A program made the translations under genes and the position numbers. The notes below the pieces were generated by a model, which ran no database searches, had not been told where the DNA came from, and was given only the letters and a program-made list of their open reading frames with translations. This document shows, in pieces, positions 23,670 through 54,019 of a stretch of DNA of 64,000 nt (the first letter of the stretch is position 1; every line of letters starts with the position of its first letter). This DNA comes from Candidatus Zipacnadum vermilionense (GTDB taxonomy: Bacteria; Armatimonadota; Zipacnadia; Zipacnadales; Zipacnadaceae): assembly GCA_029821755.1 (NCBI GenBank), contig JALGSV010000007.1:1-64000 (forward strand). The letters are read 5' to 3'.

Positions 23670-24263
23670 TTACCAGATCTTCAGGTTGTAGTTCGACCGA
23701 GTGTAGCCGTAGACCGCGATCACGAAGCGACCGGGGCCGCCCCAGTCGCGGGTGATGAAGGACCCGACCTGCTCATTTCTGTAACCGGCGCTGTACCCGA
23801 TCAACTCCAGGGAGCTGTTGGGAACACCCGGCCTTAGGGGAGAGAACACGTACAGGTCCGGATCGCCCCAGCGGTCCACCACGTACACATCGGTCAGATT
23901 CCACCAACTGGTGAGATTGCACTCGTGCCACTGTGTGCGGCGAGCGGCCACGGTACGGCGCCAGAACCAGCGATTCAGACGCAGCACGGTCATGTAGGAG
24001 GCAGGGCTAACCTCCCCCGCCGGTGCGGCCGGAGGCGCCACTTGGGTGCCGTCGGCCAGGAAATCGGGCAGTTCCTTGCCCAGCTCCCCCAGCGTCGCCT
24101 GTAACTGCTCCAGCGTGGGGCTCTGGGTCACGGTGACGTCGCTGCGCAGAGGGTCAGGTGTCGCTGGAGTCAAGGGCTCGGAAGTCGAGCCGCCGCACCC
24201 GGCCATCAAGAGGATCCCCGCCAGTCCCAGAACCGCCAAAGTTAGTGTGCCGTATCTCATCAT
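23670..24263 (-). CDS. Probable lipoprotein with PPC-like C-terminal domain
   Basis: 197 residues. A hydrophobic leader ends in LLMAGCGGS, close to a lipobox, so the mature protein may start at that Cys. A Thr/Pro-rich linker and a helix follow. The last 80 residues (DPDLYVFSPLR, GSFITRDWGGPGRFVIAVYG) look like the beta-sandwich of bacterial pre-peptidase C-terminal domains. ATG 24263 is chosen with GGAG 5 bases upstream; GTG 24269 is also possible. It has its own promoter at 24337-24366 and is divergent from the SLH porin gene. Confidence 0.7.
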   Translation of the reverse strand: MMRYGTLTLAVLGLAGILLMAGCGGSTSEPLTPATPDPLRSDVTVTQSPTLEQLQATLGELGKELPDFLADGTQVAPPAAPAGEVSPASYMTVLRLNRWFWRRTVAARRTQWHECNLTSWWNLTDVYVVDRWGDPDLYVFSPLRPGVPNSSLELIGYSAGYRNEQVGSFITRDWGGPGRFVIAVYGYTRSNYNLKIW

Positions 24264-24336
24264 ACTCACTCCCCTCGAGCCATTTTCGGCTCTGGTTTCC
24301 CTATTCGTGTGTCCTTACTACTATCTACTACTGACA

Positions 24337-24601: not shown

Positions 24602-24876
24602 CTGGGGCTAACAGCCCCAAGCGTGTCGAGCGTCTCAGGGCGCCGATAGCCGATTCCAGGCCGCAGAAGGGAGGCCGCTAGGCCAGGCTGTCGGAGGTCC
24701 GCACTGAGAAGCGGAGCAGTAACCCAAATCGTAGCTACGGGCGGATGAGGCAACAATGGACACTCATTTGCCCTCCGCAATATTGGGGTAGCGCTCCGGA
24801 GAGATGCCCGGTGTACCTTGTCGTTAAGCCGCTCATCTCCTCGACGACCACACTTAAGGAGGGTATATTACCCCAA
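24595..24876 (+). ncRNA. Long structured 5' leader of the SLH porin mRNA
   Basis: The leader can fold into several hairpins: GGGGCT-AAC-AGCCCC at 24604-24618, CCGATAGCC 24643-24651 with GGCTGTCGG 24686-24694 (one G-U pair), and CCGC 24699-24702 with GCGG 24711-24714. I could not match it to a known riboswitch. It may stabilise the mRNA or control this abundant protein. Confidence 0.4.
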
Positions 24877-26643
24877 ATGACTAAGAAACTACTAGTAGTA
24901 TGCCTGCTCGTGGCCCTGGGCCTCATGGCCCTGCCCGCGCTGGCGCAGACGAATCCCGCAGAGACGGTGCCGTTTGACCACTGGGCCTATGACGCTGTGC
25001 AGAAGCTCGTGGATCGCGGCATCATCATCGGTTACCCGGATGGCACTTTCCGGGGCAACCGGGCCATGACCCGGTACGAGTTCGCCATGGCGATCAGCCG
25101 CATGCTCGATGCCATGCTCAAGGACCCGAACATGCGCGGTCCTGCCGGCCCCGCTGGCCCCGCTGGCACCGCCGGTGCCGCTGGTGCTGCCGGTGGTCCT
25201 GCCGGTCCTGCTGGTGCAGCCGGCCCCGCTGGCCCCGCTGGCCCCGCCGGCCCTGCCGGCCCTGCCGGCCCCGCCGGTACCGTGGATCCTGACGAGGTCC
25301 AGGCTATCTGTCAGAGGCTTTGCGACGAGTTCAAAAGAGAACTCAGAGACCTCAAAGACAACATGGACTACATCCAGGACGATCTGTACAATCTCACCGA
25401 TCGTGTGACCGCCCTGGAGCAAATGGGTGGCCCCCAGGTCACCGGCTGGATCGACTATCGCATCGGCCTCGCTTCCGAGCAAGGCGCGAACAACCTCAAG
25501 TTCGGTCGGGACGAGTTCGATAACCTCACCGGCAAGATCGGCGTAGAGGGCAAGGTCACCAAGGACTTGGCCGCACGTGCGATTCTGAAGGTGCGCGATA
25601 CAAATGCCGGTGAGAACGCCATCTGGCTGTCCGGCACCTCGCCCCGTCAGACCCCTCAATCAGTGGACGGCCACATGGCCGAGCAGGTCTGGCTCGACGA
25701 GGCCTGCCTGGACTTCACCTGGCACGTATGGCCGCGTTCGCGCATGATCGCGGGCCGCCAGTTCCAGTCCTATGGCCTGGGCCTGCTGGTCAACAATGCC
25801 CGACAGTCGCAGCAGGGGCTGCGCTTCATGTGGGGCAGCCTGTTCAACACCGGCATCGCCGTGGATGGCTTTGTCGGCGGCTCCAACTACACCTTCGCCA
25901 CGGACCCCGGGAAGACTCCGGGAGATGGGTATGCCAGCGTACGGTTGGCCTACAAGAAGCCCAGCTACGCCCTCGGTGGCAACTGGCTGATCAACGGCGT
26001 CGGCGGCGAGAGAGGCTGGTCCGCGGATGCGTGGGCCCGTTTCTGGGGCGGCCGCGAGTTGCAGGCCGAGTTCGCTGTCCAGCAGAAGGACATGCTGGGC
26101 AACAAGTACACCATGCATAACGACCCCACCGCCTTGATGGCGATGGTCGATGTCTGGAAGGGCTCCAGGTGGGACCTGAAGGGTTACTACTCCCAGGCTG
26201 ATGCCGAGTACAACCCCTATTACTCCACGGTCAACCCCTACTTCGAGCTGTACGGTAACGAGGGCCGGCAGCTGGTTGCTTGGGAGCGCTGGCTCCGCAA
26301 CCCGCTGGTTATGCCGAACCTCAACGTTGTCGGTGGCCGGCTGAACTTCAAGCTGGCGAGCTGGGACTGGCTGGCCTCCTACTATGCCCTGAACGGCCGC
26401 AGCAACTTCTGGGGCCACACCCTGTGGGGCAATGACGACGGCAGCCGCATGTTCTCGCCGAGCAACACCTCTCGCGCGCCGTACGACCGCCTGTGGGCGA
26501 TCACCGCGAAGAAGGCCGTAGCCGATGGCGTGGATCTGAACCTGACCTACGCCGAGCAGCTCCTCGAGAGCTCGACCAAGGCCGACAACCCCGAGATGTC
26601 CGATGCCCGCTTGGCTGTCATCGGAATCGCTGTAGGCTTCTAG
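24877..26643 (+). CDS. SLH-anchored outer-membrane porin with collagen-like stalk (OmpM type)
   Basis: 588 residues. Signal peptide to about 24; one SLH domain at 28-80 (FDHWAYDAVQKLVDRGIIIGYPDGTF), which binds the cell-wall polymer; a Gly-x-y repeat, mostly GPA, at 88-134; a predicted coiled coil at about 138-178 (ELRDLKDNMDYIQDDLYNL); then a beta-barrel ending in Phe (IGIAVGF), the usual outer-membrane end. OmpM-like proteins of Negativicutes, Deinococcus-Thermus and cyanobacteria tie the outer membrane to peptidoglycan in the same way, normally with coiled coil only. ATG 24877 starts the signal peptide; AAGGAGGG lies 13 bases before it. It is probably one of the most abundant envelope proteins. 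Confidence 0.88.
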   Translation: MTKKLLVVCLLVALGLMALPALAQTNPAETVPFDHWAYDAVQKLVDRGIIIGYPDGTFRGNRAMTRYEFAMAISRMLDAMLKDPNMRGPAGPAGPAGTAGAAGAAGGPAGPAGAAGPAGPAGPAGPAGPAGPAGTVDPDEVQAICQRLCDEFKRELRDLKDNMDYIQDDLYNLTDRVTALEQMGGPQVTGWIDYRIGLASEQGANNLKFGRDEFDNLTGKIGVEGKVTKDLAARAILKVRDTNAGENAIWLSGTSPRQTPQSVDGHMAEQVWLDEACLDFTWHVWPRSRMIAGRQFQSYGLGLLVNNARQSQQGLRFMWGSLFNTGIAVDGFVGGSNYTFATDPGKTPGDGYASVRLAYKKPSYALGGNWLINGVGGERGWSADAWARFWGGRELQAEFAVQQKDMLGNKYTMHNDPTALMAMVDVWKGSRWDLKGYYSQADAEYNPYYSTVNPYFELYGNEGRQLVAWERWLRNPLVMPNLNVVGGRLNFKLASWDWLASYYALNGRSNFWGHTLWGNDDGSRMFSPSNTSRAPYDRLWAITAKKAVADGVDLNLTYAEQLLESSTKADNPEMSDARLAVIGIAVGF

Positions 26644-26667
26644 TAAGCCGCAGCCACGTGAAACCTC

Positions 26668-26705
26668 AAGGCCCCGATCGCGAGATCGGGGCCTTGTTGT
26701 TTGTG
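26668..26705 (+). terminator. Rho-independent terminator of the SLH porin gene
   Basis: AAGGCCCCGATC, loop GCGA, GATCGGGGCCTT, then GTTGTTTG. A perfect 12-bp stem 25 bases after the stop; it also lies at the end of the convergent cobO. Confidence 0.88.
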
Positions 26706-27470: not shown

Positions 27471-27650
27471 CCCGGGCAAGGCCCGTCGGCGTCAAACAGG
27501 TTCTTACTAGACCTCGGAAGGAAATCCCGACACCAAGGAGGAAACCACCCTCCGAAACGAGAAATGCAGTCTACTCGGAAATGCTGGAGCCGTGCGGAGC
27601 TCGATCCGCGGCTCTCGGCGTGTGGATTGCGCCTGGTGGTGAAGGCTGTC

Positions 27651-28421
27651 ATGATGGATGTCAAGAAGCTAGCGAAGGTCGCAGGTGGCGGCGGGCAAGC
27701 GGCCCCGCAGATTCAGAAGCAGATTAACCTTCCGTGGCCCGATGCCTTCCGCATCAGCCTCAGGAGCGTACTCCTGCGGCTGGGGCGCGCGGGGATTGCG
27801 GCCACCGGCATCGTGTTGGGGGTGGCCTTCCTCACCTATGTCTGGTCCGACCGCATCTTCAGCGACGGCGTGGAGAAAGCACGCTTGGCCCAGGAGCAGA
27901 CTCTAGCCGCGGCCGCCGAGAGCGTGCGCAAGCCTGCCGCCGCGCCGGAGGCCGAGCAGGGGGCCCCTGATCAGCCTGTGGCGCCCGACGCCAGTCAGTC
28001 CACCAAGGCCGAGAAGGACGCCCGCCAACTCTGGCTGGTCGTCATGTCCTTGCTCGTCTGCGGTATCGGGATCACCAACGCCATGCTCATGTCGGTAACC
28101 GAACGCTTCCAGGAAATCGGCACCATGAAATGCCTGGGGGCGTTGGACGCGTTCATTGTGCGTCTGTTCCTGATCGAGTCGGTGGTGATCGGGGTGCTGG
28201 GCTCCGCCGCCGGCATCATCATCGGCATCCTCTTTGTCCTGCTGTACTACGGGATCAAAGAGGGCTTCTCGGTGACCGCCAAAGTGGACTGGGGCTCGTT
28301 GGTGATGGTCATGTTGTACGGGCTGGTCATCGGGACCGTCCTGGCCCTGCTGTCCGCCATCCCCCCGGCCATTCGCGCCGCCCAGATGCCCCCGGCAGCA
28401 GCGCTGCGGAGCGAAATATAG
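27651..28421 (+). CDS. FtsX/MacB-like ABC permease, short form
   Basis: 256 residues with four membrane segments: one near residue 50 (AGIAATGIVLGVAFLTYVW), then a charged Ala/Pro loop of about 70 residues, then three at the C-terminus containing the FtsX signature (CGIGITNAMLMSVTERFQEIG, MKCLGALDAFIVRLFL). The usual large periplasmic MacB domain is missing. It ends in a family-typical PPAIRAAQMPPAAAL. ATG 27651 is the most likely start, with only a weak AAGG before it. The ATPase gene follows at 28577 and the giant permease at 29753; the three probably form one transporter. Confidence 0.82.
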   Translation: MMDVKKLAKVAGGGGQAAPQIQKQINLPWPDAFRISLRSVLLRLGRAGIAATGIVLGVAFLTYVWSDRIFSDGVEKARLAQEQTLAAAAESVRKPAAAPEAEQGAPDQPVAPDASQSTKAEKDARQLWLVVMSLLVCGIGITNAMLMSVTERFQEIGTMKCLGALDAFIVRLFLIESVVIGVLGSAAGIIIGILFVLLYYGIKEGFSVTAKVDWGSLVMVMLYGLVIGTVLALLSAIPPAIRAAQMPPAAALRSEI

Positions 28422-28576
28422 CGTAGGAGCGGATTCTGCGGAGCGAAGTGTAGCACCGCGGCGGCTCACCGGCATTCGAGGAACGGGCGACTGTCGCGGC
28501 AGAGACGTCGCGGAAGCGGCCCTTACGGGAGCGAGTGGGGTTCCCCTCGCGGCGGGCACCCCCCAAGGAGAATCCT

Positions 28577-29470
28577 ATGGCCAAGTATGTTTGCCCTAGT
28601 TGCGGTGAGAAGATAGAGACTACGGGGATTGTCACGGTCTGCCCCAAGTGTAACGCCGATATGGCCGGCGTGATGGAGCAGAGCGCTCGGGCCCTGCGGC
28701 AGAAGGCCGCGGAGCTGATCAAGGATGACTCGGTGACTACCCACGAGTACATCGTCCGCACTCGGGGGCTCAAGCGGAGCTACATCATGGGGGAAGAGGA
28801 AGTGCAGGCGCTGCGCGGCATAGACCTCGACGTCCGCCGCGGCGAGTACCTCTCCATCATGGGCCCCTCCGGCTCGGGCAAGTCCACCCTCTTCAACCTC
28901 ATCGGCGGCCTGGACAAGCCCACCGCCGGGTCCTGCTATATCAACGAAACGGACATGGCGCAGCTCTCCGCCCACGAACTGGCCTGGCAGCGCTGCCGCA
29001 CCATCGGCTACATCTTCCAGACTTTCAACCTCATCCCGGTCATGACCGCCCTGGAGAACGTAACCCTCCCCATGATCTTCGCCGGGATGGGCAGCGACGA
29101 GATGCTGGAGCGCGGACGGATGCTGCTGGATCTGGTGGGCCTGGGCGGCCGCCTGAACCACAAGCCGCAGGAGCTGTCCGGCGGCCAGCAGCAGCGCGTT
29201 GCCGTGGCTCGTTCGCTGGCCAATAGCCCGGCCATCGTTCTGGCTGACGAGCCCACCGGCAACCTGGACCTGCAGACCGGTAAGGAGATCATCGAGCTGC
29301 TTAAGGAGCTGAACGTGGAGAGCGGCGTAACCATCATCTCGGCCACGCACGACCTGAAGATGATCGACGTCTCCGACCGCATCGTGCACATCCGCGACGG
29401 CCAGGTGGAGCGAATCGAGAAGCGCGAAGAGATCGATCTGGAGATCGGGACTATGGGTGGCCAACCCTAG
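28577..29470 (+). CDS. ABC transporter ATPase with N-terminal zinc ribbon
   Basis: 297 residues. Residues 1-30 form a zinc ribbon with ligands C6, C9, C22 and C25 (CPSCGEKIETTG, CPKC). The remainder is a LolD/MacB-type ATPase: Walker A GPSGSGKST, Q-loop FQTFNLIP, signature LSGGQQQR, Walker B IVLADEP, and H in SATHD. The ribbon is not part of ordinary LolD/MacB ATPases and may dock to a partner or sense metal. ATG 28577 has AAGGAG 6 bases upstream. It would power the permeases encoded on either side. Confidence 0.92.
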   Translation: MAKYVCPSCGEKIETTGIVTVCPKCNADMAGVMEQSARALRQKAAELIKDDSVTTHEYIVRTRGLKRSYIMGEEEVQALRGIDLDVRRGEYLSIMGPSGSGKSTLFNLIGGLDKPTAGSCYINETDMAQLSAHELAWQRCRTIGYIFQTFNLIPVMTALENVTLPMIFAGMGSDEMLERGRMLLDLVGLGGRLNHKPQELSGGQQQRVAVARSLANSPAIVLADEPTGNLDLQTGKEIIELLKELNVESGVTIISATHDLKMIDVSDRIVHIRDGQVERIEKREEIDLEIGTMGGQP

Positions 29471-29752: not shown

Positions 29753-32700
29753 ATGAAATCTTGCAGCATAAGGCCGGCCCTGTTGGCGATGGCCATTCTG
29801 CTGAGCCTGGGCGTGGCCGACTACTCCACGCTGGCCCAGGAGGAAATGGAGGTGGCGCTCACCTCCGAGACTGACTATGCCAAGGTCGCCGCGCAAATCT
29901 CGGCTTCCGAGATCAACGAGACTATTCGCACGCTGGCTTCCTTCGGCAGCCGCGTGACCGGATATCCCGGCTGCGAGCGGTCCGCCCAGTTGATCGAGCG
30001 GAAGTTCCGTGAGGCGGGGCTGCAGGACGTCACTGTTGACGAGTTCCCGGTCATGTCGCCGCGTGTGACGGACGACCAGCGCCCGGCCACTCTCGCCGTC
30101 GGCGACCGCGAGTTCACCATCTACCCGCTCTGGCCCAACCTCGTCAGCACCCCCCAGACCCCGGCCGAAGGCCTCAGCGGCCCGCTGCTGTACGGGGGCA
30201 ATGGCTCCTTCGCCGCCTTCAATGGCCACCCGGTCACGGGTAGCCTCGCCCTGCTCGAGTTCAACTGCCAGTCCCGGTGGCTCAACGCCCCCCTGCTGGG
30301 CGCCAAAGCCGTGCTGTTCATCGAGCCGGAGGAGACCATCCGCGGCGAGGTGGAGCAGAAGTTCCTCTCCATACCGGCCGACATCCCCCGGTACTGGGTG
30401 CCCCGGGAGGTCGCCGACTACCTGCTCGGCCTGCTGAAGGCCCGGGGCGACTTACCCGTAATCGTCCACTGCGACATGCGGTGGCAGAGGGTCACGGCCA
30501 AGAACATCTCCGGCGTGATCCCCGGCACCGACCCGCGCCTCAAGGCCCAGCGCGTGGTCGTGCAGGCCTACTACGACTCCATGTCCATCGTTCCCAGCCT
30601 GGCTCCCGGCGCCGAGTCGGCTACCTCGATCGCCACGATGCTGCAACTCATCAAGGCCTTCCAGGCGCAGCCGCCCAAGCGCACCGTGCTGTTCCTGGCC
30701 ACCGCCGGGCATTTTGAGGGTTTGGCCGGCGAGCGGCGCTTCGTGATGGAGACCGTCCGCGGTGCTCGCGCAGACGGCTACGTCAAGTACTGCTTCAACA
30801 TCGCCAACGCCGCCCGCAAGGACGTGGAGGACATCGCCGCGCGCCTGTGGGGCGAGGAGATCGGCCCCGGCGGCGTCAAAACCACCCGGTCGCAAGAGGA
30901 ACAAATGCGCGGCCTGGGCGGCTTGCTCAGCCGCGTCCGCGCGGCCGCCGCCAAGTCCGGCAAGATCCAGCGCAAGTCGGCCCGGGGCCTGAGCATCGCC
31001 GACCCCAACGCCAAAGTCCTGCCCATCTTCCAGTTGCCGGAGAAAGAAATCGCCAAGCGCAAAGCCTTGCTGGACGAGTTCCAGCGCCGGGTGCCGCTGA
31101 TCCGCCAGGCGGCCCAGCAAGCCGAGGCCGCCATCCGCCAGGCGCAGAGCCAGGGCGACGGCGCTAACCTGGAAGCGGTCCAGCAGGCCACGTACGGCGT
31201 CATCGACGCCCTGGACTTCTCGGACCAGAACGTCAACCTGTGGTGCTCGGTTGACCTCTCCAGCCGCAACTCCGCCTTCGGCATGTTCTATAAGGGCTAC
31301 TTCTACGACTATGCCGAGGGCATGCAGTGGAAGTTCGCCGACGTGGGCAAGAAGGCGCGTGAGTACGCCTCCCTCATCGGGCAAGCGCTCTCCGTGGACC
31401 CGGCCCAGCGCTTTGTGGACGGCATCAACGCCCTGCAGGGCAAGAACTGGCAGACATACATGGCCGGCCACCTGGCCCTGGGTAACGAGGTCGCGGTCCT
31501 GGCCGGTATCCCCGGCCTGGGGCTGGCCACCATCAACGACAGCCGCCCCCTGGTCGACACTCCGATGGACCTGCCCGACGCCATGAACCTCGACAACGTT
31601 ATGGAGCAGGCGCGGTTCTTAAGCTGCCTGCTCAGCGACATGGTCTCCGTCACCCAGCCCCGCGACCTGTACAAGATTGATCTGGAGGACAACTTCGGCG
31701 AGGCCAAGGGTCGGTTGGTGCAGTTTGACCCCGCCGTCAGCACCTTCCCCGACGACCCCATCGAGGGCGGCATCGCCACCATCCGCAAGGTCGAGAAGAG
31801 CGCCATGGGTGTGCGCACCGAGCTGTTTGACGAGGTGGACAACCTGGGCCGCTACGCTCTGACCGGTGTCGCCAACGTCCGCGCCGTGGCGGGCAAGACC
31901 ACGGTGGAGGGCTTCCTCACCAGCGCAAGCGATGGCACCATCATCATGGCCCCCGACCTGGGCGTGAACGGCGCCACGGCCTACCCCATCGAGGTCGACA
32001 TGGACCAGCCGGTTAAGCCGGTGACGGTCGTCATGTTCGAGTGCAAGCCGGTCACGCTTTACGACATGGTCGACCAGCGGTTCTTCGATCTGCTTTCGGA
32101 GATCTACGTCTACGACGCCGCCCTGGAGGCCCCACCCTATACTTACGGCGACTGCCTGCCCTTGCCACCCAAACGTCTGGTCAGCACCTACGAGCCAGTG
32201 GGCGTGGTCTTTGCCACCCCCGGCACCAAGCTGCGGGTGACCATGGCCGCCAGCCTCCTGGGCCTGCGCTTCTTGCTGCTCAACCCGTCGCCGGCCAGGC
32301 CCGAGGGCGAGGGCTATCTGGTCGACGAGACCCCCTCCCTGTACATGAGCCCCTACCTGGTCGCGCGGGACATGTGGACCCTCGATGAGGACCGCATCGC
32401 CAAACTGGAGCGATTCGGTATCACCAACAACCTGGTGACCGAGGCCCACAATGCCGCCAGGGAGCAGCTGGAGATGGCCTCCGAGTTCCTGCGTCAGTAC
32501 CGCTACGACGCTTTCATCAGCGCAGCACGCTCGGCCTGGGCGCTGGAGTCCCGCGCCTACCCCGCCGTGCGCTCGACGGCCAACGACGTGGTCAAGGGCA
32601 TCATCTTCTACATGGCCCTGCTGCTGCCGTTCAGTTTCTTCCTGGAGCGGCTGCTCATTGGCCATGCCGACCTCAAGTGGCAACTGCTGGGCACGGGCGG

Positions 32701-34714
32701 CATCTTCCTGGGCATCTTTGCGGTGCTGTACTTCGTGCACCCCGCCTTCCAACTCACGCCTACCTCCATCGTCATCCTGCTCGCCTTCATCATCCTGGCC
32801 CTCGGCTGTCTGGTCACTAGCATCATTGTGACCAAATTCGAGGAGCAGATGAAGACGGTGAAGTACGAACAGACGGGCGTGCATACCGCGGACGTGGGCC
32901 GCTTGAGCGCCTCCGGCGCCGCTTTCAGCCTGGGCGTCTCCAACATGCGCCGCCGCAAGACGCGGACCTGGCTCACCTGTATCACCCTGATTCTACTGAC
33001 CTTCACCGTCATGTCCTTCACCTCGGTGGTGCAGGCGGTGCGGGCCAACAAGATTCTCATCCCCAAGCTGGCGCCCTACAACGGCGTGCTCATCCGGGAC
33101 AAGACCTGGCTGCCCATCGGTGAGGTCACGTACCGCCAGATGGTCACCGAATTCGGCGACCAGAACCACGTCGCCGGCCGCGCTTGGTACTTCTCCACCG
33201 AGATCGGTAAGCAGTCTTTCGTCTCCGTCAGCCGCGGGGGAGTGGAGTACATGGCTACCTCCATGCTGGGCCTGACACCGGCGGAGGCCGAGGTCACCCA
33301 GCCGCAGGAGTATCTCGTTCCCGGCAGCCGCTGGTTCACCCCGGAGGACAAGGAGGTCTGCCTCCTCCCCGAGGGCGTGGCCATTGCTCTGGGTGTGACC
33401 CCCGCCGACATCGGCAAGATCACGGTCAGCGTGTTCGGCAACCAGATGCAGGTCATAGGTATCCTCTCCTCCTCGCGCTTCAAGAGCGCCCAGGACCTGG
33501 ATGGCGAGGTGCTCACCCCCGTCGACTTCCTGGTCATGCAGCAGCAGATGGCACAGGCCCAGGTCGAAGAATCTCGGGGCCGCTCCATGAAGGGCGGGGA
33601 GATGCAGGAGTACATCCACCTGGTCCCCGACGCCGCCATCATCGTGCCGTACGAGTTCGCGATGGCGCACAACGCCACTCTGCGTTCGGTGGCCATCGCC
33701 ACCCCGACCCCGGAAACTGCCAGCGAAGTGCTCAACAAGCTCATCACCCGAGTGGAGCTTAACCTCTACGCCGGCGTGGGCGGCAAGACGTACCTGTGCA
33801 GCGCCGTGGCCTCTACCGGTTTCTCCGGGATGGGCAACGTGATGATCCCTATCCTCATCGCCGCGGCCATCGTGCTCAACACCATGCTCGGCTCGGTTTA
33901 TGAGCGGGTCAAGGAGATCTACATCTACAGTAGTCTCGGCTTGGCGCCCAACCACGTGGCGGCGCTGTTCATCGCCGAGGCCAGTGTCTACGCGGTGCTG
34001 GGGGCTATCGCGGGCTACCTGGTGGGCCAGACGGCGGCGAAGATCGTTACCGTTTTCCACCTTTCCTCCAGCCTGAACCTCAATTACTCCAGCCTCTCGG
34101 CGATCGCCACCACCCTGGTCATCATGGCCACCGTGTTGCTCTCGGTAATGTACCCGGCCCGCCGGGCCTCGGACATTGCCATGCCCGGCATCGAGCGCCG
34201 CTGGAACCTCCCCGACCCCGAGGGCGACCTGCTGCGGATGAATCTGCCCTTCACCGTAACCGGCGACCAGGCTCTGGGCGTGAACATGTACCTGCGCGAG
34301 TTCTTCATGGCGCATACCGACTACTCGCTAGGCCAGTTTTCGACGGCCGATATCGAGATGAGCCGGAAGGACTTTGAGAAGGGCGCGGGCTTCAGCCTTT
34401 CCTCCATGGTCTGGCTCGCGCCGTATGACCTGGGCGTGTCGGAGCGGCTGGCGGTGCAAACCGTGCCCACCGACGACCCGGAGATCTTCACCATCGAGAC
34501 GGAGATCATCCGCCAGAGCGGAGACGACGCCTCCTGGATGCGGGTGACGCGCAACTTCATCAACATCATGCGCAAGCAGTACCTGCTGTGGCGGACCTTC
34601 CCCTCCGCGCAGAAGGACGAGTACGGCAAGAACGCCCTGGCGCTGCTGGAGGGCCGGTACGTGGATGAGGAGGTAGTGGGGCCGTCGAAGGCGGAGGAGA
34701 CGGAGGAGGCGTAG
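29753..34714 (+). CDS. Giant fusion: degenerate M28 peptidase domain plus FtsX-type ABC permease
   Basis: 1653 residues. After a signal-like start comes an M28/PA-type region (RVTGYPGCERSAQLIERKFREAGL at about 65-90, a PA-like insert at 125-230, then VQAYYDSMSIVPSLAPGAES and LFLATAGHFEGLAGERRFV at 264-330). M28 zinc ligands are degenerate: HxD reads YYD and the EE pair reads HF. A helical region at about 400-480 and an unknown beta-rich stretch follow. Membrane segments appear from about 950 to 1030; then a MacB-type periplasmic domain and an FtsX core (IAAAIVLNTMLGSVYERVKEIYIYSSLG, near 1370). A cytosolic tail ends it. ATG 29753 is the likely start. The domain order is unusual for ABC permeases. 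Confidence 0.85.
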   Translation: MKSCSIRPALLAMAILLSLGVADYSTLAQEEMEVALTSETDYAKVAAQISASEINETIRTLASFGSRVTGYPGCERSAQLIERKFREAGLQDVTVDEFPVMSPRVTDDQRPATLAVGDREFTIYPLWPNLVSTPQTPAEGLSGPLLYGGNGSFAAFNGHPVTGSLALLEFNCQSRWLNAPLLGAKAVLFIEPEETIRGEVEQKFLSIPADIPRYWVPREVADYLLGLLKARGDLPVIVHCDMRWQRVTAKNISGVIPGTDPRLKAQRVVVQAYYDSMSIVPSLAPGAESATSIATMLQLIKAFQAQPPKRTVLFLATAGHFEGLAGERRFVMETVRGARADGYVKYCFNIANAARKDVEDIAARLWGEEIGPGGVKTTRSQEEQMRGLGGLLSRVRAAAAKSGKIQRKSARGLSIADPNAKVLPIFQLPEKEIAKRKALLDEFQRRVPLIRQAAQQAEAAIRQAQSQGDGANLEAVQQATYGVIDALDFSDQNVNLWCSVDLSSRNSAFGMFYKGYFYDYAEGMQWKFADVGKKAREYASLIGQALSVDPAQRFVDGINALQGKNWQTYMAGHLALGNEVAVLAGIPGLGLATINDSRPLVDTPMDLPDAMNLDNVMEQARFLSCLLSDMVSVTQPRDLYKIDLEDNFGEAKGRLVQFDPAVSTFPDDPIEGGIATIRKVEKSAMGVRTELFDEVDNLGRYALTGVANVRAVAGKTTVEGFLTSASDGTIIMAPDLGVNGATAYPIEVDMDQPVKPVTVVMFECKPVTLYDMVDQRFFDLLSEIYVYDAALEAPPYTYGDCLPLPPKRLVSTYEPVGVVFATPGTKLRVTMAASLLGLRFLLLNPSPARPEGEGYLVDETPSLYMSPYLVARDMWTLDEDRIAKLERFGITNNLVTEAHNAAREQLEMASEFLRQYRYDAFISAARSAWALESRAYPAVRSTANDVVKGIIFYMALLLPFSFFLERLLIGHADLKWQLLGTGGIFLGIFAVLYFVHPAFQLTPTSIVILLAFIILALGCLVTSIIVTKFEEQMKTVKYEQTGVHTADVGRLSASGAAFSLGVSNMRRRKTRTWLTCITLILLTFTVMSFTSVVQAVRANKILIPKLAPYNGVLIRDKTWLPIGEVTYRQMVTEFGDQNHVAGRAWYFSTEIGKQSFVSVSRGGVEYMATSMLGLTPAEAEVTQPQEYLVPGSRWFTPEDKEVCLLPEGVAIALGVTPADIGKITVSVFGNQMQVIGILSSSRFKSAQDLDGEVLTPVDFLVMQQQMAQAQVEESRGRSMKGGEMQEYIHLVPDAAIIVPYEFAMAHNATLRSVAIATPTPETASEVLNKLITRVELNLYAGVGGKTYLCSAVASTGFSGMGNVMIPILIAAAIVLNTMLGSVYERVKEIYIYSSLGLAPNHVAALFIAEASVYAVLGAIAGYLVGQTAAKIVTVFHLSSSLNLNYSSLSAIATTLVIMATVLLSVMYPARRASDIAMPGIERRWNLPDPEGDLLRMNLPFTVTGDQALGVNMYLREFFMAHTDYSLGQFSTADIEMSRKDFEKGAGFSLSSMVWLAPYDLGVSERLAVQTVPTDDPEIFTIETEIIRQSGDDASWMRVTRNFINIMRKQYLLWRTFPSAQKDEYGKNALALLEGRYVDEEVVGPSKAEETEEA

Positions 34715-52867: not shown

Positions 52868-53959
52868 CTATCCCTTCCCCAGCTTCTCCGCCACCTGCTC
52901 CAGCACCGTGATATTCAGCTCTGCCGCCTGGCGTAGACGCTCTGCCGCGGCGGCACGAGCGGGGGCGGTCTCCTCGCGGCTGCGCCAAAGGTCCTCCGCA
53001 GCCACGCGCAAGCCCAGATCGGTTAGCCCTTGCAGCGGGAGAATCTTCTGTCCGGCTTGCATGGCGAACGCGGTCACCTTGGGGTCATAGGACAACCCCA
53101 GCGCCGGGACCTGGTGCGCAGCGGCGAAGACCAGGCCGTGCAGACGCATGGTCACCACCAGGTCCAGCCGGCCGAACACGCTGAGCATGTCGGCGGGAGT
53201 AAGCGGCGTCTCCAGCACCGACGGCGCGGTCAGGGACGTGGACGAGATCCGCCAGGCCAGCGCCCGATCCTGCGGCTGGAAGGGCAGCAGCACGCAGCGC
53301 AGCCCCAGGTGTTCCTGGAGGTAGTCGCAGGTCTCGGCGGCGGTTTCCCAGAATTCTCCCCCACGCCAGTTGCGCAGGATGAGGGCGCAGATCGGTTCCT
53401 TGGAACCCAGCCCCACCGAGCGCAGCAGGTTGTCGGCGACCACTTTCCGCGCCGGCTCCAGCAGCAGCGCTAGGTCCGCCGCCTCAGTGACCTCCACGCC
53501 GCTGACGCCCAGCCCCCGCACGTACTGCACGGAGTCGGAGTCGCGCAGCACGATCGCCTGGGCCCTCCCCAGGTAGCGCTTGGTGGCCGACCCTACCCCT
53601 GGCCCCCACAGAGGCCCCAGGCCCTGGCCAAGCAGGACGTACGGCGTCCCGCGCCGCAGGGCCAACTCCAGGATGCTGAGATAGTAAGCCAGCGAGAGCT
53701 GCGAGGTGACATTCTGCAGCAGACCGCCGCCGCCACTGATAAGCAGGTCCGCTCGCCCCATCTCCTCCCACAGGGACAGGATGGAGTCACGGGCGCAGGC
53801 CTCCACGCCGTAAGTCATCTCGGTGGTGGCGGGCTTGCGGGAGAGCACCACCGGCGTCCAGTCGGGGTGGCGCGCCGCCATCTCCTGGAGCAGCGCGGCC
53901 AGGATGGCCTCATCGCCCAGGTTGTCAAATCCATAGTATCCGCTGAGCAGAACACGCAT
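52868..53959 (-). CDS. csaB: Polysaccharide pyruvyl transferase CsaB
   Basis: 363 residues of the CsaB/WcaK family. Landmarks are VLLSGYYGFDNLGDEAIL at the N-terminus, SGGGGLLQ, LGQGLGPLWGP and the late MRLHGLVFAAAHQVPALGLSYDPKV block that forms the phosphoenolpyruvate site. It adds pyruvate ketals to the secondary cell-wall polymer so that SLH domains can bind it. This ties it directly to the SLH porin at 24877. ATG 53959 begins family sequence; AAGGAG lies 12 bases upstream. It is divergent from the TPR gene. Confidence 0.93.
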   Translation of the reverse strand: MRVLLSGYYGFDNLGDEAILAALLQEMAARHPDWTPVVLSRKPATTEMTYGVEACARDSILSLWEEMGRADLLISGGGGLLQNVTSQLSLAYYLSILELALRRGTPYVLLGQGLGPLWGPGVGSATKRYLGRAQAIVLRDSDSVQYVRGLGVSGVEVTEAADLALLLEPARKVVADNLLRSVGLGSKEPICALILRNWRGGEFWETAAETCDYLQEHLGLRCVLLPFQPQDRALAWRISSTSLTAPSVLETPLTPADMLSVFGRLDLVVTMRLHGLVFAAAHQVPALGLSYDPKVTAFAMQAGQKILPLQGLTDLGLRVAAEDLWRSREETAPARAAAAERLRQAAELNITVLEQVAEKLGKG

Positions 53960-54019
53960 GGCAGATAGGTTCTCCTTACCTCGGTCCTCTCCCTTCACCG
54001 CTCGGCGAGCGTTTGCGCG

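Follow-up and report, generated by a model that had tools for sequence, protein, structure and literature searches.

A 588-residue protein encoded in the window (the whole stretch of 64,000 nucleotides analysed here) combines an SLH domain, a collagen-like Gly-x-y block, a coiled coil and an outer-membrane beta-barrel. It is probably a trimeric porin tether of the OmpM/SlpA type, with a collagen triple helix serving as a spacer in its stalk. The domains, with their order and conservation, were established computationally, as were the barrel fold and the selection acting on Gly. The trimer, the triple helix and its stiffness, the binding to the wall and the role as a spacer are inferences, and no expression, localisation or binding data stand behind the tether reading. 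The original prediction had assigned to this open reading frame a signal peptide, one SLH domain, a Gly-x-y repeat, a coiled coil and a barrel ending in Phe, and sequence, Pfam and AlphaFold2 all bear out that layout (Table 1).

Table 1 Features of the porin gene and its product, and the csaB gene on the same contig
Feature	Position	Strand	Evidence
OmpM-like tethering porin with collagen-like stalk, 588 aa	24877..26643	+	ORF, Pfam, profile, AlphaFold2, fold search
Ribosome-binding-like AAGGAGGG, 13 bases 5' of ATG 24877	24856..24863	+	read from sequence
Sec signal peptide (MTKK...ALPALA)	24877..24945	+	by eye; hydrophobic helix in model
SLH domain, residues 35-70	24979..25086	+	Pfam PF00395
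Collagen-like Gly-x-y block, 16 triplets plus one extra Gly, residues 88-136	25138..25284	+	Pfam, sequence analysis
Coiled-coil helix, residues 138-182 (45 residues)	25288..25422	+	AlphaFold2 model
Outer-membrane beta-barrel, 18 predicted strands, C-terminal Phe588	25435..26640	+	AlphaFold2, fold search
Intrinsic terminator hairpin, 13 pairs, then TTGTTTG	26667..26696	+	sequence
csaB, wall-polymer pyruvyl transferase, not linked to the porin gene	52868..53998	-	TIGR03609

The start was placed at 24877 rather than at an upstream ATG at 24745 because AAGGAGGG precedes the former, and with this motif before the ATG and a terminator hairpin after the stop codon the porin gene looks monocistronic. 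Its neighbours encode rubrerythrin, CobO and an ABC/FtsX transporter, and no functional link with them was evident. Upstream of the porin gene and divergent from it, a gene on the minus strand (23670-24269) encodes a secreted protein of 199 residues with a lipoprotein-like signal, LMAGCGG, for which no Pfam match was found. We also observed an unusual fusion on the plus strand (29753-34714), in which a 1653-residue open reading frame joins an M28-type peptidase to a MacB/FtsX permease; it is adjoined by a short FtsX protein and an ABC ATPase (27564-28421, 28535-29470).

The SLH domain, the only one in the protein, scored 44.8 bits against PF00395 (cut-off 20.8). An AlphaFold2 monomer built from a 45-row alignment had a mean pLDDT of 78 and contained 18 strands, most with pLDDT >90, together with the helix at residues 138-182. 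The best Foldseek match in the PDB was Veillonella OmpM1 (8bym, E = 6.4e-12), with modest TM-scores of 0.35 over the query and 0.59 over the target, followed by the 18-stranded AlgE and OpdK and other porins with 16-18 strands. A model without a barrel would have refuted the original prediction; a barrel was predicted, with OmpM1 as its nearest solved fold. Its strand number is uncertain, being 18 in our model and 16 in VpOmpM1. The sequence profile of the family (A1) matched SlpA (7zgx, 9e-24) and VpOmpM1 (8bys, 4e-21), both via the SLH region, and also matched collagen chains. We also modelled L131, a distant member from Chthonomonadales, on an 18-row alignment; this gave a porin barrel and a coil, with low confidence in the N-terminal part. 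The best fold matches of this model were MOMP, AlgE and sugar porins, and OmpM1 appeared only at rank 48. Since L131 is also modelled as a porin barrel with a coil, the architecture spans classes, with barrels that have diverged.

The Gly-x-y block consists of six triplets, an extra Gly that produces a G-G interruption, and ten further triplets. It had been described as about 47 residues, mostly GPA; the GPA content stands (11 of the 16 triplets), but the length is 49 residues with one interruption. The Pfam Collagen model scored 26.6 bits by hmmscan, just below its cut-off of 27.2, and 30.4 bits, above the cut-off, in the six-frame search. Ten Gly residues in register would arise by chance with a probability of ~6e-11 per site, given 9.4% Gly in the remainder of the protein. 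Among 45 aligned homologs, all of which matched both Pfam SLH and Pfam Collagen (Collagen E up to 0.01), Gly 94, 110, 116, 119, 122, 125, 128 and 131 were invariant and four more nearly so, while the x and y residues varied. Because Gly is fixed while x and y change, we attribute the block to selection for a collagen helix rather than to slippage; this pattern is the signature of such selection. For the triple helix itself, which is inferred, the invariance of Gly is only indirect support.

In 1751 triplets from 131 distinct block-bearing N-termini, Pro filled 54% of the x positions, and the y positions held Ala (34%) and Pro (18%), with Gln or Lys also found there. The blocks had a median of 13 triplets (range 3-54); this set was partly chosen by pattern, so only the composition was used from it. 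In the monomer prediction the block had pLDDT values of ~43-59 and no triple helix was modelled. Such low confidence, in a window block that is GPA-rich and mostly uncharged, would also suit an OmpM-like tether of the same kind whose block never becomes a triple helix but stays a flexible linker, single-chain or polyproline-like. We consider this unlikely. A linker of that kind does not require Gly in every third position, but eight are invariant over 45 diverse proteins in which x and y change; the high Pro content at x, with Ala, Pro, Gln or Lys at y, also speaks against it, and the coiled coil directly after the block could register three chains. Low confidence is what a predictor would be expected to return for a lone chain of a triple helix.

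Stalk lengths were computed from 65 proteins, in which the collagen part had a median of 42 residues (36-48 between the 10th and 90th percentiles) and the coil from block to barrel a median of 50 (49-52 over the same range). Collagen rises 0.286 nm per residue and an alpha-helical coil 0.149 nm. With these textbook rises, the stalk would measure ~19.5 nm in a typical member and 21.3 nm in the window protein. One family (f6: L014, L015, L017) has blocks 3-4 times longer than those of others in the class, with 105-173 collagen residues (the count varies with the treatment of interruptions) and computed stalks of 45-57 nm. The distance from the SLH end to the coil core had a median of 59 residues in proteins with Gly-x-y versus 61 in those without; of the 48 family proteins lacking Gly-x-y, 47 had the coil core. 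Since these residue counts are alike, the slot is shared and its filling differs. Cys145 and Cys149 of the window protein (25309-25323) lie directly after the collagen block. Only 16 of the 45 homologs have a Cys in the block-coil junction or coil, where an interchain disulphide is possible by analogy with animal collagen knots.

The shared slot also bears on whether the block, rather than being a spacer, chiefly binds a partner, be it a wall polymer, an S-layer or some periplasmic protein. Collagen-like domains of Lcl and Scl do bind ligands (PMC11162425). However, no x/y motif is conserved in the block, its length varies freely up to the extremes of f6, and about one third of the sampled family proteins hold unrelated sequence of equal residue count in the same slot, so that we find a primarily ligand-binding role hard to credit.

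To describe the spread of the collagen-bearing architecture, we sampled the 59 of the 61 nearest genomes that carry homologs and an even draw of 81 Armatimonadota genomes, which yielded 142 family proteins that were complete or nearly so. A block, defined as at least five strict triplets, was present at the same position in 94 of them: in 70/70 proteins of the window's class and in 24 of the 72 from the remaining Armatimonadota. The proposed search for SLH-Gly-x-y-barrel proteins elsewhere in the phylum was thus successful, and the other envisaged refutation, a block absent from nearly all close relatives and varying like a slippage artefact, failed, since all class homologs keep the block with Gly fixed and x/y variable. 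Twenty-three families had the block in every member, 11 lacked it and two were mixed. On a FastTree phylogeny made without the block columns, presence required 7 state changes versus 40 in shuffles, and the block was never lost in one clade of 71 proteins, although deep branches of this tree are weak.

When 85,000 species genomes were scanned with a DNA pattern, at least 118 stretches were returned, of which 114 were confirmed as open reading frames in frame. Among the matches listed, these 114 all belong to Armatimonadota, either because they are so titled or because they closely resemble others that are, and they fall into Zipacnadia, Hebobacteria, Chthonomonadales, Armatimonadia and Abditibacteriaceae. 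Three titled Actinomycetota or Bacillota (L106, L145, L212) encode proteins resembling those of Armatimonadota. Pattern matches in Bacteroidetes, Clostridia, Chitinophaga, Bacilli, Krumholzibacteriota, Streptomyces and Puia were set aside as chance, since in none of them does the reading frame give a protein of this kind. It should be noted that the scan was bound to its motif and that only the matches listed were considered, so absence from other phyla is not established. On this comparative evidence the SLH-collagen-barrel protein appears to be ancient and is widespread in one phylum, not a freak of one genome.

The window's genome contains a second such gene in pieces: an SLH half that ends contig C45 and a barrel half that starts at the end of contig C32 (L002/L003 on C32/C45) are both broken inside Gly-x-y, and we infer that they are one SLH-collagen-barrel gene, paralog B. 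The conservation data rule out a functionless block that arose by slippage in repetitive, GC-rich DNA or through misassembly. Although the DNA of the block has a tandem-repeat signal (9- and 27-base periods) and paralog B breaks within its block at contig ends, the repeat units are only 70-75% identical, the codons are mixed (GGC 9, GGT 8) and the block recurs in all class homologs, from independent metagenomes, with differing triplets.

The paralogs of Zipacnadia fall into two ancient groups, A and B, whose block lengths were correlated in the 23 genomes having both (Pearson 0.77, p = 2e-5), a value reached by none of 10,000 within-family shuffles. Contrasts over 11 independent species pairs gave a correlation of 0.81, and of the 8 informative pairs 6 were concordant; a few block lengths in these contrasts differ slightly by definition. 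The x/y residues of A and B blocks were more alike within a genome (46%) than between genomes (37%), and therefore the correlation could be due, in part or entirely, to gene conversion or to shared composition. In the 12 genomes with dissimilar A and B blocks the correlation was weak (r = 0.45, p = 0.14). The matched lengths are thus suggestive only of a length-tuned spacer, and gene conversion is not excluded. The wider proposal, that a periplasmic collagen triple helix acts as a length-tuned ruler that sets the distance of the outer membrane from the peptidoglycan in much of the phylum, with paralogs in the same cell co-evolving to equal length, may hold, but we advance it tentatively and would not presume it correct.

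The genome encodes one Omp85/BamA, and no OmpA-type peptidoglycan-binding domain was found in it. With BamA and CsaB present and OmpA-type wall binding absent, OmpM-type tethering is to be expected, and the genome fits a diderm relying on such tethers. A search of the genome for LptD gave no match, but the same model also missed known diderms in controls, so that this negative carries no weight. The csaB gene, which had been named as the source of the wall modification that SLH domains need, is present as stated and scored 273 bits against the curated TIGR03609 cut-off of 213, with the match at about 53027-53956 (-); CsaB was above this cut-off in 31 of 41 relatives. Its part in making the SLH ligand is plausible, although the case is circumstantial and wall binding by the SLH domain is itself inferred. 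In Negativicutes the OmpM ligand is polyaminated peptidoglycan and not a pyruvylated polymer (PMC10628300), and we therefore leave open the ligand of the SLH domain in the window protein.

We propose that the SLH domain of each chain would bind a wall polymer to which CsaB probably adds pyruvyl groups, while the C-terminal barrel would sit in the outer membrane and work as a channel. The membrane-proximal coiled coil (~50 residues) would gather three chains and nucleate the collagen triple helix, which at ~14 nm would form the wall-proximal half of a ~21 nm stalk. The collagen segment would take the slot filled by coiled coil or linker in other Armatimonadota, and its length could change in 3-residue steps. 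The stability of GPA-rich helices that lack hydroxyproline may be no more than moderate.

Many Armatimonadota thus appear to fasten the outer membrane to the wall via a porin in whose stalk one segment is collagen-like. Should that stalk indeed be collagen, a structural protein resembling that of animals would be bearing load as a periplasmic strut in bacteria, and the range of triplet numbers found in nature, from 7 to more than 30, would offer a ready series for relating tether length to periplasm width. Collagens of this Pro- and Ala-rich type, in which hydroxyproline is neither known nor tested for, would also provide triple-helix sequences from a new source. Outer-membrane tethers of Terrabacteria are thought to be ancestral and relevant to the diderm-to-monoderm transition (PMC10628300).

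The window protein meets the features of OmpM and SlpA in its signal peptide, N-terminal SLH domain, central coiled coil and C-terminal barrel. A stalk of coiled coil alone, which is typical of these proteins without strictly defining them, is not met, as Gly-x-y is inserted, and we regard the protein as a variant. OmpM1 of Veillonella parvula (8bym, 8bys; PMC10628300) shares the SLH domain, a stalk containing coiled coil (trimeric in OmpM1) and the porin barrel; unlike the window protein, it has a shorter stalk of coiled coil only, 16 strands and polyaminated peptidoglycan as ligand. SlpA of Deinococcus radiodurans (7zgx; PMC9388160) shares the SLH domain, a long stalk and an outer-membrane barrel, but its stalk is a long coiled coil only and its barrel has 30 strands. 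Both papers agree with the original prediction that these stalks are coiled coil only, and neither mentions collagen. SlpA-like/OmpM proteins have been noted in Armatimonadetes (PMC9388160). The cyanobacterial SLH porins SomA/SomB (NF033921) resemble the family in the SLH region, which matches in 45/45 homologs; the SLH stretch alone matches the window protein, whereas the barrel does not. Membership in the SomB iron uptake porins (NF033921) was accordingly rejected, at 59.1 bits against a cut-off of 100. No joint description of collagen-like repeats and SLH tethers was found in the full-text literature searched, subscription papers being outside its scope; the collagen-stalked tether is new to that literature, and priority cannot be firmly claimed.

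The bacterial collagen-like proteins described so far are known as surface, spore or efflux-pump proteins. The window protein satisfies their criterion of a nearly uninterrupted Gly-x-y repeat, with 16 triplets and one interruption, and shares with Scl1/2, Lcl, BclA and Bucl8 a Gly-x-y block without known proline hydroxylation. In Bucl8, Gly-x-y is joined to an outer-membrane channel protein (PMC7682875, PMC8968730). Bacterial collagens without hydroxyproline do form triple helices, as in Scl (PMC8968730). The composition differs from that of bacterial collagens generally (x 19% Pro, y 32% Thr; PMC8968730), with 54% Pro at x and 34% Ala at y. The window family further differs from the described bacterial collagens in that its block lies between a wall-binding domain and a barrel and hence would be periplasmic.
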